Assembly (NCBI GenBank): GCA_021209875.1
Contig: JAGYVD010000009.1
Coordinates: 2,170,001 to 2,234,000, forward strand
DNA from: Rosellinia necatrix
Lineage: Eukaryota > Ascomycota > Sordariomycetes > Xylariales > Xylariaceae
Length of the DNA: 64,000 bases
Reading direction: 5' to 3'
Under the pieces are notes generated by a model. It was not told the origin of the DNA, searched no databases, and saw only the letters and a program-made list of their open reading frames with translations. Both the position numbers and the translations under genes were made by a program. Shown here piece by piece: positions 1-57,420 of the stretch (position 1 is its first letter; the number at the start of each line of letters is the position of its first letter).

Positions 1-498
1 TCCAGATTACCTCAAACTAACCGCCGTTATAGAAGCTCTCAAGCTTTTTCTTAGCTGGAGTTGCCGGATGGCCCCTGTATAATGAGTTATAACGATAAAG
101 ACTTTCAGCCAAATATCGGCAATATCAAAATGCCATAGTTATTGTAAAGGTCGTGAGTGTTGATCTCTACCCACTATCGCAGTCCTGACAGAATTAACCT
201 ACCTATAATTTACAAGAAACGGTAAATCTGTCACGTACGACCACAGCCTCCAGAGAACTCGGGATCCCGTCCGCTCTCCCATAGATAAGCTGGAGAGCGC
301 CAGATTAGTAGTTGGGTCGGTGACGACCAGCGAATCCCTGGTGTTGTACGTTTTGATTTTTTTTATGCACTTAACCGGAAGATATGTAATATATGGTAGG
401 TAACATATGATATATGTTTAAAGCACATGGGCGTCATTTGTTGCTGTGGCCGTTCCAGTTCGAATTCTTGATGATCAATGTCCTTTCCCCCCTGTTTT
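1..498. other. Intergenic, nothing recognised
   Basis: No reading frame of useful length, no RNA gene and no repeat was recognised. Base composition is ordinary for the left arm and shows no RIP signature. The 3' end of the 73-aa ORF on the minus strand abuts the right edge. Confidence 0.5.
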
Positions 499-720
499 TT
501 AGTATTTATGATACTTAAAAACGGCATTGCTGCAAACAACAACGCCCCGAAGAACCTCCACTCGGGTTCCGTGCTTATCTCCTACCATCGAGTCGGTTGC
601 ATCCGCATGTTTAAGAACAAAGTACCACATAACCCCAACCTCATCACCTAGCTCGTTGGGTTTATTAGCTCCCCAAGGTAATTCCACTATGCCCAGTAGC
701 TCCGATTTCACAAATTTCAT
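499..720 (-). CDS. Small unknown protein, 73 aa
   Basis: An ATG-initiated frame encodes 73 residues beginning MKFVKSELLGIVELPWGANK and ending in FKYHKY before a TAA. Composition is balanced and protein-like, with a charged start, an aromatic-rich middle (VGVMWYFVLKHA) and a basic end, unlike the low-quality frames around it. I do not recognise the family. There is no signal peptide or membrane segment. It could be a stand-alone small gene or the last exon of a longer one: a CTAAC branch-like motif lies just upstream of the ATG, but I could not find a matching upstream exon. No neighbour gives a functional hint. Confidence 0.4.
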   Translation of the reverse strand: MKFVKSELLGIVELPWGANKPNELGDEVGVMWYFVLKHADATDSMVGDKHGTRVEVLRGVVVCSNAVFKYHKY

Positions 721-1648
721 ATAGTTAGGAAGTGAGAACGAAAAGGCGAACGGATAAACAAGAGTACACCATTAAAGAGCATCCAACATCTAGGTTCCGC
801 AACGGAGTTGCTCGTTCTGTGAGGGCGACGAATAGAAAAGAGCAGAGGATATCTAGAACAAAGCTATATACTCCCGATAATAGCCATGAACACTGCGATA
901 CTTCTCTATAGTGGAGATGGGAAGTATTATATTTCGCAGTTGATTTTGATACTGCGATCTGCCATGGTATTCCCGCGGATGGTAGTTTTGCATTCAACCC
1001 CTACGATCCATTGACCCGCTGGTCATGCCTTGTTCACCATCCTTCTTAATAGCTATAGAGCAAACCAAAACAATTGTTAGGAATCCTATTTGCATTTGAA
1101 CTGTGTTGCGTATATTTCAAACCAAAGTAGAGTTGGACTTCGTGACGTTCTCGAGTTACCAATCCCCCAAAAATTGCCCACTACAAGATAAATACGCCCA
1201 TATCTCAGATGTCAAATAACGCACAAATTAAAGAACCACCATTCTTCACGGCGGTTGTCTCCACATCATGATTATTTTTTGAGAAGATGGACTAGTTAAT
1301 TGACATGTCTAACGGAGTATGGTTATTCATAAAGACAGGCTGCTTCCTACACACAACCATACCTCTTCACCTTGAACGATTCATAGCTAGCGAAGGGCAA
1401 AATAGTGACAAAAACATCAGACACAAATTAATCTGTACCTGACTTACATAGTGCCTACCTGCCGACAGGATTGACTGGGTAATTTCCGCCAATTGCGCAT
1501 CACTCGTGCCACCAAGAACGGTAGATATGTTTTCCATCTGATGAAACCTCCAAACGCCAAATAATTGTATGCATCACCTTGATATTTCCACACAAACTGA
1601 CACCCCTTGCCAGATCCCATGAATACATATGGTGTGCAAAGCTAATAC
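721..1648. other. Intergenic, nothing recognised
   Basis: Only short frames starting at non-ATG codons are present, with no recognisable motif. No repeat or RNA gene was seen. Confidence 0.45.
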
Positions 1649-48349: not shown

Positions 48350-51300
48350 TCAAAGCAGTCTGATGTCTACCGCTCTCCGATGCTCCGCTCCACCAGGCAT
48401 TCCATGCATAATACCGTGAATATAACCCTCACCCAGAAGAATGCAATGACCCCGGCGCTGTTTGTTCTCTCTGATCAGGAACGGTACAGCGCTTCCCCAT
48501 ATCATCGCGACAATGTCCCCAGGAAGAACTGTCCCAGGCACGATGCCAATGTATCCCTGCCGCGTTCTACACGCCCTTGCGTCTATGAATTTCTCTGCAA
48601 ATTCTTTTGCAGCATGGAGATACGGCCGAAGCAGTCTCCTGAGTTTTTCGGGCCGTGACAAAAAGTGTTTGATTTTCCCCAGCGCACGCATTTGCATCGC
48701 TTCTCTTTCCCGGTCCACGTTTTGCTCTCTGAGCTCCAAATATTCGGTCAACGCTTGGTATGCCGCACGGAAATCAACCCCTTCTCCAGTTGCGGATCTA
48801 GTTCCCACAAGACCTCCGATAGGAATCTTCCATTTAAGTTCCCCGACACTCTCCTCGTCCGGATAAGAAGAACATTCTTTGATCAAATCCCACAACTCTT
48901 TCAAATATAACATAAAACCGTCTTTCCCGTATGATGTATTGCTAACTTTCTCGACGGTGTCAAAAAAATAGCCTTTGGTGATCAAAATAGAGCTATCATA
49001 TGAAGCCAACGAGGCATAGCTTGGGGACGAGGGACAAGCGGTAAAGTTACGTGGCGTGCTCAGCCATGTGCTGATTGTTTGTTTGGGTGTGTTGGTGATC
49101 CAGTCTGGAATCCATGATGGAAAGCGATTCGAAGACCACCCTGCATGATACAATAGCTCTATTGCATTGTCTCGCCCTACGAACACCCCTGCATACCTCT
49201 TGACGATGTCCTCCAAGCGAGAAGCATAGTCAGGATCTAAATGTGGATCCTGGGCGTCATTAGCTACGCCAAGAAGTGCAAACAATTTGTCTCGCTGTAG
49301 AGTTGCCTTGCTATGGTGAAAACGTTGAAACAGCGTGAGAAGCCCCCTGCCGCCTGCGTCTTCTCCTTTGTGGTAGCTAAGCCTCAGGTCCCCAAGACTT
49401 AACACCGCAGAAACATTCTTGCCTATTTGTTTCATAACACCGGTGCTTGATATCTGTGATTGCTGGGAACAGATTCTTGCGGCGGTATAAATATGATCCC
49501 ATTGTGCTGACTTCTTACCACATACTACAATGACTTGTCGCGCCAGGACAAGCTCTTGAGCTATCCACGCCCTCTGGAACCAAGACCGGTTGAAGAAGCT
49601 ATTGACTGAGTTCCATACAGGATCCTCTTCTTTGGCGAGTAGTGCTTTGAGAGCTTCGTGTTCTGTTGTTATTGCCATGCTGCAGAGATGCTCGATTGCG
49701 CTGTCACTGCCACTTGCTTCTGATCCAGTCCAAACAGAGACTTGCTTTGCGGTTGCGAAAATGCTTGGCATAAGGCGTACTTGCTTATTCTTCTCTTGCG
49801 TATTGCTTTGGTCGATGCATATCGCATCCGCCCATATTAGGACCGAATTCTCTTTCTCCCGAAGGTGTCTCAATCCAAGACACAATGAGGTGGTAATTCC
49901 TATACCGCCCTCTGAGGTTGCCAACACAAAAGATTTAACACCGAAGCCCCATGCGTAGGATATAGCCAGGTAAGGCCTCGTACAATTTAAAGGCACGTGA
50001 TGTAGTTTTCCTCTCAAGTCATCTAGGGCGTCGCCAGGAAATAGCTCTAGTAGTCGAATAGTCCCAATAGTCAATGATTGATAAACATACGTTTTGTTGT
50101 GTGAAGATCTCCCTTGACAATTCCCGAGAAGGGTACCCCAACCAACGGGTTTGATTAGTTGAGGCTCTTGTCCATATGAGATAGAAAGCGACTTAGTATG
50201 TCCAAAATCTCTGAGGGCGATCTGTGGCTTAGGTGATGGGATTTCGACTGAGAAGAAATCTTTATTGGGTCGCACTTTCATTTGTCCAGAAGCAAACATT
50301 CGGTATGGGTCAACATAAAAAAATGCAGTTGGTGTGTTGTAAAGATCGGCAATCCGAACAAGGATCAAAACATCATGTGGCAAGTTCGGCCACGGTCCTG
50401 TTCTGTAGCTCCTGACCTAAACCTCGAAAATATGGAATGAGCCAAAATGAAATTTATAACGGTAGATGTGGGAACTCACCCTCTCAAAGCTATCCGTACT
50501 AATCACAAACGGCGAGTCCTGTCCGTCGATGGTGGTTTGTACTTGTATGTGGTACACGGGACACGACAACCACCACCACATGGCCTCTCGGAAAGACGAT
50601 CTAAGCAGGAAGCTCGTAACCGCGGGTACTTCCCGGAGCGTGAATGTAGCTGTGGTATCGGTAGGCTGGAGCAAACCAGTCTGATCTGCTCTTGTGCGTA
50701 GATGACTCGTCCAGTGCTTTTCGGGGAGGTATGCCGTTCCTAGTCGCTGTTCCAGGAGTTTCGAAACCTGTAGGACTATGTTAGCCCAAATATTTTAGAA
50801 ACAGAGGGCAGTATTCTGGGTATTTATTACAAGCAATTCTCCAGCAAACGCCGCGTCTGGATCACTGTGTATATCAGGGCTTGTGGCTACAATGGTGTTA
50901 CAGCTCCCTGACTCGGATACCTGTGCTCGCCCGGAGAATATATTGCCGCCCAGGGCATTCTCCGAAAACCCTTCGCTTAGTAGCTCCTGAGGGTCTAAAA
51001 TGAACGTTAAGTGAGGTGCGCCTACTATTCTCGGATATGCGAGTACAGGAAGCGGGGGGGATTGATTCTTGACTCCGGCGCTAGACATCAATTCGCCCTG
51101 ATTTGAATGTATTAATGTCACCGCGTCCAGGTATTGGTTGCCGAGCGAGGCATACTCATGCGGTGACGCTCCTTGCCCGTTGTCTAGAGGGCGATTTGAA
51201 TCATGAGTGGCACTTTCAATGTCTAGTACGACGTCTGAAAGCGCCGCGCTCTCCGTAACATCATCCTCCCCGGTAGCACCAAGTTTGAAGTCGTCCAACA

Positions 51301-54300
51301 CATCGATTTCGCCGTCAAGCTCTCCATTTAGCCCATCCGGGGTGTATTGTTGATCTAAGTATTGCTCAATGTGAGATAAACTGGGTTGGCTAAAGACGAA
51401 GTATACCAACTCAGATTGGTCTCCGATGCCGCATATGTCGGCCAGCTGGGTCGCAATCTCATAAGGTAGGAAGGATCTACAGCTGTGATTTAGATAGAGT
51501 TGAATCCTATTCTTTTCATCTGGTCGCGAAACTGCTGCCTGAGCTCTCTCGTCGTATTTCTGGCTTTTGATCTTCCGTCCTCCCAAGCGAAAGTCGGTTG
51601 AGGTAATGGTCCACTCCACAAGCACCTCATCTGCGAGGAATACCTCCATTGTGTTTAGCGCTACCAGAGTCTTTCTCCGCTGTGCCAAAGATTTTGGCAT
51701 CATCCTAATTATTTGGTATTTAGTGTGAGGTATGGTCATTGGATGGAGTTGGGAAATATGAGAAACCTTCGCGTTTTGATTTTGAGAACCAGACTTACCT
51801 AGCGATAAACTTCGATTTCGCTCGAAACAGTTCTGTCTGCGCCCGATCCAGTTCGACGTTTCCGGAAGTTCTCATTCTCGGGGTTGCTCGTTTGGAAAGT
51901 AGCCTGCCCTCAAAACCCAAGGCTTTGATCAGAGGCGTCATCGTCAGGATATCCCACGGAGAAAACGATATTAGCGATACAACACCTCGAAAGCTATTGC
52001 GATACTGGGGACGATCCGCAATATACCATTCCGACTCATCCAGACCAGAACAAAGGTCATTGAAGCCTGACATTGCATTACCTTCATCAATAGGGAATAT
52101 CTTATGGGACCGCAGCCGATCAGCTAAGTCCTTCCCAAGTCGAGACACATGCCTTGTACTGATTTCCTTGAAGAGTTCAACTATCAAGTTCAGAGGTGTC
52201 GACATGGAAATCGATTCCAGCTCAGAAACGAGAACGTCGAGATCCGTGTGTGTATGGGTTAGGACCTTAGTAAACAGTCGCTCGTACTGACTGTATAACC
52301 TTTTGAGCACATGGAATTTCTGAAGAAGCTCCGTTCCATCCCACACACACTCGTTTTCTTCGACCCATATCGATTCTACTCCAGCACAGGAACTTGGAAT
52401 GAAAATGCAATTTTTCTTGAATGCTTCACTGTGAGTTGTTAGTCTAACCGTGGAAACAACGATCTCAAAGCACCGCGTAGTTCTTACCTCACAGCCTTTG
52501 GACTCTCATCGGCTTTCTCCTGGATCTTCCCATATAACCAAGCGACAAAATCTTTAGACGCATTGGAGCCCCGGTTTCTCTCCAAGTCCAGGCATCGGAG
52601 ATATATCGTAATATCATCCTTAATGGTGACACCAAAAGTTTCCAAGAAGTCCCACGCTGCATCCTGGGGCTCTGGAATATCCAGGAGAAGCTGTGGGGAA
52701 AGAATGGTCTGGTCTTTGATCTCCGGAAAGATGGAGACTGTGAACGTCTCGCAGAGGGGCCTGGATGAGCCATCACTGCAACTCACCATTGCTGACTTTA
52801 GTTGCTCTCGCAGTCCAGCGCTTCCTGTGATGGTTACATGCGTATTACCCTTGTCATTCTCGTCTTGTGGTAGGAAGTAGAGCTGATATCTGCCCCATTC
52901 CTCCCTAAGTAGCATGAGAAAATCTCTTGATGGCCAAATTGTCAAAATACGCTGAAAATCTTCCGATAGGTTACCAGGATCAGAATTGCTAACAAGTCTA
53001 GGCACATCCCATACACCCAGCGATTCACGGAGCCACTTTTGCCACTGGGCCAACTCACTCGGTTGAACTGCTCGATAGTATTCTGCGTGCAGAAACGGGA
53101 AGTCTCGTCTGAATTTGTTGAAATATCGACGAGGATGGGGTTTTTCAACGAGATAGTAGGCCTCTCGAGCTCGAACATGCTTGTCTTCATTGGTTTTGAC
53201 CCAAAAATTTTCAGGCGATTTCTCCGAAACCCAATTTGTTCGAAATAGGAAGACGGTTTGATCGATCAGGTCATGTAGGCTTGACGGGCTTTTCGCAGAG
53301 CATCTTTGGACAATTAGGTCTTGAAACTTCGGAAGGAGCCGGGATGTATCCAGGACCCCCAGGTGCTTGGATAGCCAAAATAACCAGCGTTGCTTTTCGT
53401 CGGGCTCAACAGCCTCGTGATATTTCGGATGCAAAAAGGCGAATCTTTGGGTAAATTCATCGAAGTGTTGTCCAAAAGAGTGGTGTGTTGTGGTGTCGAG
53501 ATAAGCTTGATCAGCACGCACATAATACCCCACCTTAGACACAACCCAAAAAGGGGGAGGAGGTATCCGTTCAGATGACCACTTTGTCCGAAACAGAAAA
53601 ACCGCTTGCGAAACGAGGATATCTTGCTCAGCCATATCCACGGAGTTGGGTTTGGAATGAGCCTCAACAACCAGACTCTGGGCCTTTGAAACGGACAGTG
53701 ATTGGACCCCCAGCATTTGGAACAGCATTCTTCGCTGTTGATTCTTCATCGCTTCAACGTGGGTGAACAGCACTCCAATGCCACCAGGGATAGCAGGGCC
53801 TTCACTTTCGGGGAAGAATATGTTGCCTACAGATGCCGATACCCACCTCCCATCACTTAGGGGGATAAGCTGCAGGTCTTCGATCACTCTTTTGTGTTGA
53901 TTATTGTCCTGGGAAAAGCGGGTCAAAAGCTTTGCAACATGTTCATGCCATTCCTCGGGTTGTTGCTTAACGAACCCGTTGTCAGCAATTAGGATTTCGA
54001 GGTCCTTCAGAAACTCTGTCTCCGATAACTCTCTCACACCGAGTTGTTTAAGGCAAGCCCAATCCTTGTCATTATATCGTAATGACAAGTATTTAGACCC
54101 AGTTCTCGGACTAAAGGCCAGTGGCAGGTTCCCTTGTCCCCTCATCTCCTGTGGTACATAACGAGCAGATAGAGCTGTAATGGGGGTTTCGTTTATGGAC
54201 TCCAGGAACTCGCCATGCAGCAGCATGTCCTTCATTCCATTTTCAACGTCCTGGAAGGAATGAAGAAAGTTAAGTGCAGGCACGTACCGCGGCCATGTGT

Positions 54301-55546
54301 ATCGTAAGGTTCCGCTGTTCAGTTGTCGAATCGCACCCTTGAATGCATCTACAACAGAATGTTGAAGAGCTTGATTCCAGTCAGATGAAGATACTATATC
54401 CTCGCGATTCGCAACAAGTAGAAAGTCGGCGTTAACGACAAACTAGCATCATCAAGTTAATATAATGCGTAATTATAAGTTATGAAGACAAAAGTTTTGA
54501 ACCGGCTTGCCTTTAAACCATAGTTCCTAACGGGAAGCGTGGCATGGACGTCCTGATCTTCAACCACGGGCTCTACCGCATCCGGAAGGCTGATATGCCT
54601 ATTCTTCTCCGTGATACAGACCGGAAAGGCTAAAGTGATGATAGATTCGGTGCAATGCGCACGCTTAAATTCCGAGTGTGATATCTTAACCTTGTGCCTA
54701 TACATCCAATATACCCAACTCTTGTCCGTTTGGCTTAGCGTTGTTGTGGTCAGGGCTGAGCCGGGAAGGTATGGGCTAATATCGTCGCGACGGATGGTGG
54801 TTCCCCAGGTTCCACCGTCTTGGCCGCGAATAGTGATATTGATCTGCCGTAGTCTCCTTAGAAATAGTAGGTGCTTAGGATTCATTGATCTCATCTCTTT
54901 TATTAGTTCCTCCGGCTTACAGTCTCTGCGTAGCTGAAGAAGGATCGATGTCGTGAAGCCAGGTAGCGCGCCCATGGGAAAATTCGCCCACTGCGGAGCT
55001 ATCATACCAAGTTTTCGCGTTGTGTCAAATTGGAATGAATAGCTTCCCGAGAGCACCCACACCACGTCCGCCATTTTGAATACAGACTTAAACCCAATCC
55101 CTTTCTCTCCAGTCTGCTCTGTGGATTGTCCCTTGGTGCTCGAGACCTTGCATATTGCCCTAACATCCCGCCTGGTGAAGCCCAGCTCATTGTAGTCAAC
55201 ACGCAAGTGACCTGGCGAGTAGGTGATGTTCATCTGAGGAGTTGGATCGCCGTAGGAGCAATCATCGGCATTCTGTAACAGCTCCAGTAGAAACCGAGTG
55301 GGTTGTTGGTAAAGCCCTTCGGCAATGCTGTAGCAAGACCCCGTTAGCCATTACTATTGAGCGTCGCACAGAGCGCGGGAGCTGAGTGATGAAACGAAAT
55401 GAATAACAGTACAGCTTAAGTGATTGCTCTAGGGCATCGCTGAAGTGGTTAAAAGAGTTTGGGTTGGTATCATTGTCAATGCCCTGGTCTTTCCTGATCT
55501 GATCAATATGGGCTTTTGCCTCTGCGTGCGTTTTCGGTCGCTCCAT
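48350..55546 (-). CDS. NO VEIN/sacsin-type HSP90-like ATPase fused to a HET domain, 2,254 aa
   Basis: Seven exons join with consistent phase: 55546-55413, 55327-54511, 54442-52488, 52428-51799, 51704-50831, 50767-50480 and 50416-48350. Residues 57-128 hold the Bergerat ATP-binding motifs: FLLELLQNADD (E60, N64, D67), VDYNELGF and TGEKGIGFKSVF, as in NO VEIN/sacsin proteins. The long middle matches that layout (YGLKFVVNADFLLVANREDI at about 315-335) and has a duplicated unit (598-690, 714-803). Residues about 1475-1610 look like the NO VEIN C-terminal/DUF3883 region (YHIQVQTT, TGPWPNLPHDVLILVRIAD, YVDPYRMF). A HET domain follows (about 1714-1860: PYLAISYAWG, WADAICIDQ, WFQRAWIAQE), with its usual tail (PGDIVAMIWGSAVPF, GEGYIHGIMHG). 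HET domains execute incompatibility cell death. The fusion suggests an ATPase-gated trigger, which is inference. Confidence 0.9.
52985..53602 (-). repeat. Tandem ~90-residue protein repeat
   Basis: Residues 598-690 (FLFRTKWSSE ... LFWLSKHLGVLDTSRLL) and 714-803 (FLFRTNWVSE ... QKWLRESLGVWDVPRLV) align along their length, with shared RA(D/R)(Q/E)AY, F..F...F.FLH..Y..AV.P and W...LGV.D..RL. It is an internal duplication in the middle region. Confidence 0.85.
54443..54510 (-). other. GC-AG intron in the HET-fusion gene
   Basis: The 68-nt intron starts GCAAGC after AAAG and ends GATGCTAG. Splicing here restores YGLK|FVVNADFLL, the conserved NO VEIN sequence, in phase 0. Read through, the frame hits a stop. 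No nearby GT donor gives this join. Confidence 0.75.
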
Positions 55547-56339: not shown

Positions 56340-57420
56340 CACCACATCCAACGCAAATTTGATAATTCAGGATATGGCGCCATTAGCCTATGAACAAGTC
56401 TTTCAGCAGAGCGGCTTGCATCTTGAACGCATATATCGGGAATTACTCGGTCAAATACTGAAAATCCAATGTAGGACATGTCACAGCATTTAGGCAGACC
56501 AACAAGGTAGAGATAAAAGAAGGGACTCTAGACTTTACGGAGGCTGCGGCGGGCCTCAGGAACGAAGCAAGCCAACCAAGAAGGAACCGCACAAAGGAAG
56601 CTTTCGTACTTATGGTAACACCGAAGAGATCGGCGATTCTATCGAAGTCGAAGAGCTAGACAGTCGGCCTAGGGTAGCGGGAAGAGGTAAAGCATGCGGC
56701 TTTCGAGGAAGGGAATTGCGAGAACAAACACAAGGTTCTGCAAGCAAGAGGCCGCGGGCAGACACAAAGACACGCGATACAGAGTGCAAGCTCTGCACTC
56801 AGACCCATACGTTAGAAAGGTGTTGGTACGCCTTTCCAGAACCTTCGTCTGAAGACTTTATAGCAAATCAGACTGTTCAGGGGATTGTTCAAAGGCTTCT
56901 AAAGTCAGACCCAGAGCTAGACAAGGAGATTGAACGAATCCGAAAGAAAAGAGCAACGCAGGATGAGTCAGCGATCAGAAAAGACACTATCAAGGAGACC
57001 TGCCCAGACGGCCTTTGCAGTAGGCAACAAGACGAGAACAACCTATAGTCTGAGGACCTCGGCTATTCTTGACTCGGGGACAACCAGAGACATATTTAAC
57101 GAGATCAGTAGGTTCTTGAATTTGGGGAGAGCTAACCCGTATGACGCAGTATACGCAGGAGACGGAGTTATTTATATGAAGGGATTCTGAGAAGTTAATA
57201 TCCGAGTCCAAGGACCAAAGGACCAGAGGCCTATCGAGTTTACGATGTAGCCTATTGTTCGAATATTGAAGTAGGGTATTACGACGAGGTCGATAAAGAA
57301 GGAAATACAAAAGGGCTAAATGGCTGAACCTACATAAAAAAGGGGTATAAAATTGTTAATATAAATCTTAAAGCTTTATTTCCACAGCTAGTGTAAAACT
57401 TGTGATGGCTGCAATACTGG
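56340..57420 (+). pseudogene. Ty1/copia gag-protease fragment, decayed
   Basis: A CCHC-type knuckle (CKLCTQTHTLERCWYAFPEP, 56786-56845) is followed in another frame by the aspartic protease region (AILDSGTTRDIFNEISRFL, about 57062-57118; AGDGVIYMKGF, then a stop and EVNIRVQGP). Upstream gag-like sequence (EAAAGLRNEASQPRR) is split by stops and frameshifts. No integrase, RT or clear LTR is present, so this is a truncated relic. Unlike the block at 14-48 kb it is not AT-rich. Confidence 0.75.

Follow-up and report, generated by a model that had tools for sequence, protein, structure and literature searches.

A conserved fungal fusion of a sacsin-type ATPase, a NOV_C domain without its predicted nuclease residues and a HET domain, encoded by one gene of Rosellinia necatrix

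The gene described here lies on the minus strand of a 64,000-nucleotide stretch of Rosellinia necatrix DNA (assembly GCA_021209875.1, contig JAGYVD010000009.1; hereafter the window), and its product combines an N-terminal Bergerat-fold ATPase, a long middle part, a NOV_C (DUF3883-like) domain and a C-terminal HET domain. The ATPase–NOV_C–HET architecture is confirmed as real and conserved, and the proteins that share it have lost the predicted nuclease residues of NOV_C. We lean, with a modest preference, towards reading the protein as a single-chain, non-NLR receptor built on a TmtA-like ATPase, in which the HET death domain would take the place of the nuclease as effector. The genome searched comprises 49.1 Mb in 12 contigs, the window being positions 2,170,001–2,234,000 of contig C11; C7 and C9 are further contigs of the same genome, and P numbers (P0001 etc.) denote database proteins.

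Removal of six introns (minus strand, 55412-55328, 54510-54443, 52487-52429, 51798-51705, 50830-50768 and 50479-50417) leaves a product of 6,765 nt, which translates into 2,254 residues with one terminal stop and no internal stop, as claimed in a preliminary description made from the letters of the window. Five introns have a GT donor and intron 2 is best taken as GC-AG. Three GT donors were listed for this intron, two of them frame-breaking; the third, at 54489, keeps the frame and would add seven residues (2,261 in total), and the GC-AG reading is favoured because none of the 26 relatives covered at this point has an insert there. Exon 7 (50416-48350) starts at residue 1567 and encodes the final ~55 residues of NOV_C together with the entire HET domain, in agreement with the earlier statement that the NO VEIN end and HET share one uninterrupted exon; about two thirds of NOV_C are encoded by exon 6.

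The preliminary description had proposed a search of the spliced protein for the ATPase, NOV_C/DUF3883 and HET. Pfam gave HET and, for the ATPase, SACS alone, but NOV_C/DUF3883 was not reported at E ≤ 1, nor was NACHT or NB-ARC. Because Pfam gave no support for NOV_C, profile–profile comparison was used. Aligned with hhalign against a profile of the C-termini of 60 of the 121 HET-less fungal NOV proteins, the segment at about 1467–1620 gives a probability of 99.4 (E 3e-21), so the NOV-like C-terminal motifs noticed earlier stand, though without a Pfam match; against the eight DUF3883 relatives from outside the fungal NOV set the probability is 80.8 over 68 columns. DUF3883 has been described as a novel restriction endonuclease (REase) domain by Anantharaman and colleagues (PMC3710099).

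The predicted catalytic residues of this domain are an aspartate, a glutamate and a lysine. HET-less fungal proteins typically carry them in the motifs TADLVYxD and YxIEVKTT; the window equivalents are TATFTLRE and YHIQVQTT. No fused protein (0 of 25) has the complete D-E-K set, against 107 of the 116 HET-less fungal NOV proteins that are covered and all eight other relatives (Fisher p 1.5e-20, a statistic that ignores relatedness). The 25 fused proteins counted are the window protein and 24 from the database, P0012, P0002 and P0005 being left out as they contain too little NOV_C; P0021 aligns poorly where the segment begins. Five of the 121 HET-less proteins are uncovered at these positions, and some of the nine exceptions among the 116 are probably odd gene-model C-termini. 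Single residues survive in a few fused proteins (E in 10/25, K in 1/25, D in 0/25). Since both other NOV genes found in the window genome (C9:350592 and C7:301161) also keep an IEVKAT and an ADIMY motif, the loss of nuclease residues goes with the HET fusion. The preliminary description had pictured an ATPase wired directly to a death effector; the domains do lie in one chain, but with NOV_C lacking its predicted catalytic residues in 25/25 fused proteins, it is more probable that HET replaced the earlier effector than that it was added to it, and HET may have taken over as output from the nuclease.

The HET domain is complete, as had been stated: the match to PF06985 covers the full profile (1–146 of 146) at 88.4 bits, against a cut-off of 22.5. 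Three blocks, for which we use the names SYxWG, WADAICIxQ and WFxRxWxxQE, are kept among relatives. S1719, Y1720, W1761, D1763 and Q1769 are conserved in 26/26 covered rows, W1722 in 27/27, G1723 in 24/27, R1848, W1850 and Q1853 in 24/24 each, and E1854 in 25/25. We take E1854, in WxxQE, to be comparable to the residue of the TIR helix that bears the catalytic glutamate. HET has been described as related to TIR (PMC10197012, PMC10890737), and a published HET–TIR alignment extends to helix αC (PMC4986451). Foldseek with a model of exon 7 returned no match at E ≤ 0.001, and a phmmer search of PDB sequences with exon 7 none at E ≤ 1. The part that follows HET is of a type annotated as PF26639 in relatives; the Pfam scan of the window protein itself did not report this family. 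The window genome holds 63 other matches to the HET exon, counted exon by exon.

At the N-terminus, the Bergerat residues E60, N64 and D67 and the glycine motif GEKGIGFKSVF (118–128) are in place, and Pfam SACS is matched at residues 90–147 (E 1.8e-11; 44.8 bits against a cut-off of 32.8), which bears out an ATPase of the sacsin/NO VEIN kind. The loss of these motifs in relatives had been named beforehand as speaking against the original interpretation. They are kept: among 30 aligned rows N64 is present in 29/29 covered, E60 in 28/29, and G118, K120, G121 and G123 in 30/30, the sole exception at E60 being P0023, whose gene model misses the entire first motif. ATP binding and hydrolysis are putative activities.

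The ATPase half is also related to TmtA, which we take to be the single gene of the Tiamat anti-phage system. PADLOC TmtA profiles match exon 2 alone (E 2e-42) and exon 3 (E 4.3e-18). With P0001 as test protein the best match (E 6.9e-66) joins residues 30–556 to profile positions 23–565 of 1302, a second TmtA profile matches residues 874–1204 at positions 852–1171 of 1563, and no single match runs over a full TmtA profile. In the cyanobacterial relative P0030, which has SACS and an intact DUF3883, one TmtA profile is matched from 4 to 1302 of 1302. The relation of the fungal protein to TmtA is homology of part of the protein, from which an antiviral role does not follow. Tiamat is listed among systems whose mechanism is unknown (PMC10482375), and no publication on TmtA as an antiphage protein was found in a search that left most subscription literature outside. 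A galectin chain that ranked first (E 7.4e-5, no stretch passing on its own) in the search that also matched a sacsin crystal chain was taken as chance.

A whole-protein search gave 37 homologues, 25 of them with HET and 23 of these also scoring for SACS; the fusion is therefore not unique to the window gene. The other 12 are P0002 and P0005 (shorter and HET-less), two HET-less fungal NOV proteins and eight proteins with DUF3883, including cyanobacteria, a diplonemid, a green alga and a protist transcriptome. Most of the 25 with HET are single chains of about 2,000–2,600 residues. Named sources of HET-bearing relatives include Xylaria, Cercophora, Cudoniella, Fonsecaea, Cadophora, Amniculicola, Coccidioides, Scytalidium, Oidiodendron, Phialocephala, Thozetella, Fusarium, Annulohypoxylon and Drechslerella. 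This survey of the same architecture, suggested in the preliminary description, places fused proteins in at least five classes of Pezizomycotina (Orbiliomycetes, Eurotiomycetes, Dothideomycetes, Leotiomycetes and Sordariomycetes), with taxonomy looked up for four genera and Xylariales assigned via Rosellinia. The full-length relative P0001 of Xylaria cf. heliscus is one chain of 2,275 residues that matches the window protein from end to end, which supports a single gene, and the Rosellinia necatrix database protein P0002 is identical at 1160/1249 aligned positions (93%).

Both halves of the fused proteins group alike in trees. In the ATPase-half tree the 25 fused rows form one group (Shimodaira–Hasegawa-like approximate likelihood ratio test, SH-aLRT, 99) and 27 HET-less fungal rows another (100); when a mixture model was used and a long outgroup row dropped, the fused group scored 98. 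The HET-half tree likewise places 25 fused rows in a single group (99), separate from 32 other HET rows, of which nine come from the window genome. The NOV trees contain 26 of the 121 HET-less proteins and the C9 locus, with P0021 left out; P0003 was left out of the HET tree, in which truncated gene models may account for some stand-alone HET rows. The trees were built quickly, without bootstrap, from rows chosen by search rank. With the ATPase and HET halves each forming one group, one old fusion that has been kept intact since is the simplest reading; spread of the fused gene between fungi is a possible alternative history. The single-group evolution of both halves, the HET-linked nuclease loss and the TmtA relation are new relative to the preliminary description.

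The proposed mechanism starts from an ancestral ATPase of the sacsin/NO VEIN/TmtA type with a C-terminal DUF3883-type, probably active nuclease domain, a layout presumed from the HET-less fungal NOV proteins and the bacterial TmtA relatives. A whole HET module would have been joined behind NOV_C, the nuclease residues would have decayed, and HET would now serve as the output. In the present-day protein the Bergerat domain may bind ATP and clamp or dimerise as in Hsp90-type ATPases, while the long middle, including a fast-changing duplicated module at 591–813, may read a cell state or a foreign molecule. The resulting conformational change could cluster the HET domains and so cause death or a death signal, perhaps through NAD+ chemistry as in TIR domains. 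As an account of an ATPase–HET fusion, a receptor seems a reasonable idea. A broader proposition is put forward tentatively: the fused proteins could be a class of non-NLR fungal immune receptors, in which a relative of an anti-phage ATPase of bacteria exchanged its nuclease for a TIR-like HET domain once, early in Pezizomycotina, survived as one gene across five classes and uses its variable middle module as sensor.

HET ranks with the commonest and most poorly explained domains of fungal genomes (PMC10890737, PMC10197012). The trigger is unknown for most HET proteins; here a candidate switch lies in the same chain, its family includes an anti-phage relative, and the swap from nuclease to death domain is legible in the sequences. 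This opens two questions to testing: have fungi turned relatives of anti-virus ATPases of bacteria into immune receptors, and does ATP binding gate HET?

Several known systems resemble the window protein in part. TmtA shares the sacsin-type Bergerat ATPase and the region that follows it; however, the TmtA-matching bacterial relatives among the 37 homologues are without HET, the best match of the fused relative P0001 covers part of the profile, and the fused proteins have lost the nuclease residues. The HET-less fungal NO VEIN proteins (P0028, P0029, P0038–P0156 and the C9 and C7 loci) have the same ATPase–middle–NOV_C order, but 121/121 of the proteins lack the HET core motif, and they differ further in their largely intact D-E-K set and separate tree group. 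The Podospora NLRs HET-E, HET-D and HET-R likewise hold a nucleotide-binding switch and HET in one chain, as described in PMC10197012 and PMC12881547; in contrast, they combine NACHT and WD40 repeats with an N-terminal HET, whereas the window protein has a Bergerat ATPase and a C-terminal HET. In Bh of the het-B locus (HET, a HAD domain and a lectin fold), HET belongs to a non-NLR allorecognition protein with extra domains, but it is N-terminal there and the accessible text of PMC10890737 describes no ATPase. Animal sacsin-like proteins in which a sacsin-type ATPase is joined to the cell-death adaptor domain DEATH are reported in PMC3710099; both the death domain and the kingdom differ, DEATH is described as N-terminal, and no shared origin of the fusions is proposed here. 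In Acropora corals, two divergent haplogroups of a sacsin-like gene have reportedly persisted (PMC8626496), a possible parallel for diversity in sacsin-type genes. No publication was found that links a HET domain to fungal NO VEIN or sacsin proteins, or heterokaryon incompatibility to DUF3883, in the same search, which did not reach most subscription literature.

As is supposed of human sacsin, the window protein might be an ATPase with a chaperone-like or proteostasis function, in this case one that uses HET for protein–protein signalling and not for killing. The sacsin kind of the ATPase agrees with this (NCBIfam P_loop_sacsin matches P0001 at E 1.2e-15, and the sacsin crystal chain 5v44 is matched at E 2.6e-4), as do the proposal of HET as an adaptor (PMC4986451) and the description of an incompatibility role as shown for only a minority of HET genes (PMC10890737). 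However, the TmtA defence profiles are matched over a longer stretch than sacsin (residues 30–556 of P0001), HET alone is described as enough to cause death (PMC10197012), and the core residues of HET are invariant where covered, so that we regard a chaperone-like role as unlikely.

The middle module bears on both the receptor reading and a further alternative. It is present as two full copies in 5/30 rows (the window protein, P0001, P0002, P0004 and P0005), as one copy and a fragment in P0003 and as one copy in each of the 22 rows P0006–P0027, and is absent from P0028 and P0029; among the 119 other HET-less fungal proteins, 27 show weak, mostly partial matches. A blastp self-comparison of the 30 proteins listed no internal repeat, but direct comparison of the segments and a profile did show one. 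Over the first 1,250 residues, differences between the window protein and P0002 are uneven (heterogeneity p 3e-4): they are most numerous in residues 626–750 (19/125), which the two-copy module overlaps, and fewest in 1–125, 876–1000 and 1001–1125 (two each). The 591–813 module is a candidate sensor, judged by its sequence, but weakly constrained sequence would show the same pattern. In the pair P0007–P0009, in which the 626–750 bin has hardly any coverage, differences peak outside it.

The same observations would suit an allorecognition (het) locus, at which hyphae that fuse would prove incompatible because of allelic variants of the gene. Het loci often contain HET (PMC10890737), the differences to the R. 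necatrix relative are highest in the 626–750 bin, and the copy number of the module differs between species. Nevertheless, 4 of 132 HET genes in Podospora anserina are described as having an allorecognition role (PMC10890737), and this low base rate makes such a role unlikely for an arbitrary HET gene; moreover, divergence between two genomes of unknown relatedness is uninformative on balancing selection. Allorecognition is accordingly rated as distinctly improbable.

Returning to the fusion itself, homology was followed across the splice junctions, counting relatives that are gap-free within eight residues on either side of an intron. The counts are 24/27 for intron 1, 25/27 for intron 2, 5/27 for intron 3, 20/28 for intron 4, 23/27 for intron 5 and 0/25 for intron 6; introns 3 and 6 are less well supported because of length differences among relatives nearby. 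Two X. arbuscula annotations split the gene (P0005 with P0157, and P0003 with P0165), and since the breaks lie at different places, each annotation being continuous where the other breaks, they point to annotation errors. Even so, these splits, the end of P0002 at window residue 1246, the lack of a second half named from R. necatrix among 73 exon-7 matches (26 with part of the NOV_C tail and 47 without; best 7,999 candidates scored), the gapped homology at introns 3 and 6 and an AT-rich block with signs of repeat-induced point mutation (RIP) some 450–550 bp from the 3' end of the gene could suggest two adjacent genes wrongly joined, or a gene decaying beside a repeat-rich block, which is highly improbable given the continuity of each X. 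arbuscula annotation across the other's break, the size of most HET-bearing relatives as single proteins, the like grouping of the two halves, the crossing of the NOV_C–HET border within exon 7, and a gene with no internal stop and no RIP signature (index -0.56).

Table 1. Features of the fused gene, with window positions, strand and supporting evidence.
Feature	Positions	Strand	Basis
Whole gene, 7 exons and 6 introns, 2,254-residue protein	48350..55546	-	Splicing and translation; P0001 aligns to 100% of the query (66% identity)
Intron 2, probably GC-AG	54443..54510	-	Frame kept; in-frame GT alternative at 54489 disfavoured by homology only
Bergerat-fold ATPase motifs, residues 60-128 (ELLQNADD, NELGF, GEKGIGFKSVF)	55078..55284	-	Residue conservation, Pfam SACS, PADLOC TmtA
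Duplicated module of ~105 residues, copy 1, residues 591-699	53297..53623	-	43% identity between copies over 95 residues, E 4e-25 (two-sequence comparison); profile E 2.6e-52
Duplicated module, copy 2, residues 709-813	52955..53269	-	Profile scan of 30 rows
NOV_C (DUF3883-like) domain, residues about 1467-1620, predicted to lack nuclease activity, interrupted by introns 5 and 6	50255..50842	-	hhalign
Nuclease residues replaced: D by T1511, E by Q1545, K by Q1547	50531..50653	-	Alignment with HET-less proteins
HET domain, residues 1715-1854, ends in WIAQE (E1854)	49553..49972	-	Pfam PF06985, E 7.5e-25
C-terminal part after HET, residues 1871-2254, region type annotated PF26639 in relatives	48353..49504	-	Precomputed Pfam annotation of relatives

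The AT-rich block beyond the 3' end of the gene extends over some 34 kb (about 14,000–47,900), with 14% G+C and a RIP-like dinucleotide bias (index +0.72). The flanking genes are ordinary, encoding a GH76 enzyme, a lactate/malate dehydrogenase and a synaptobrevin. A Pfam scan of eight flanking frames, which could miss multi-exon genes, showed no obvious partner. A 184-residue frame at 56494-57048 (+), lying about 1 kb upstream of the gene, contains a CxxC...H...C zinc-knuckle-like stretch and resembles, by eye, a copia-type gag remnant.

Three HET-less NOV proteins deserve mention. The C7 paralogue (C7:293500-303499, minus strand) keeps its NOV_C residues, but its ATP site looks degenerate because the glycine motif reads GTEGIEFKSVF, the reverse of the situation in the window gene. 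The C9 paralogue is adjoined by a frame that looks, by eye, like ankyrin repeats (474-1490, minus strand, within C9:347000-356500). P0142, from Collariella, has an N-terminal short-chain dehydrogenase match just under the cut-off (E 9.3e-6) and may be a joined gene model.

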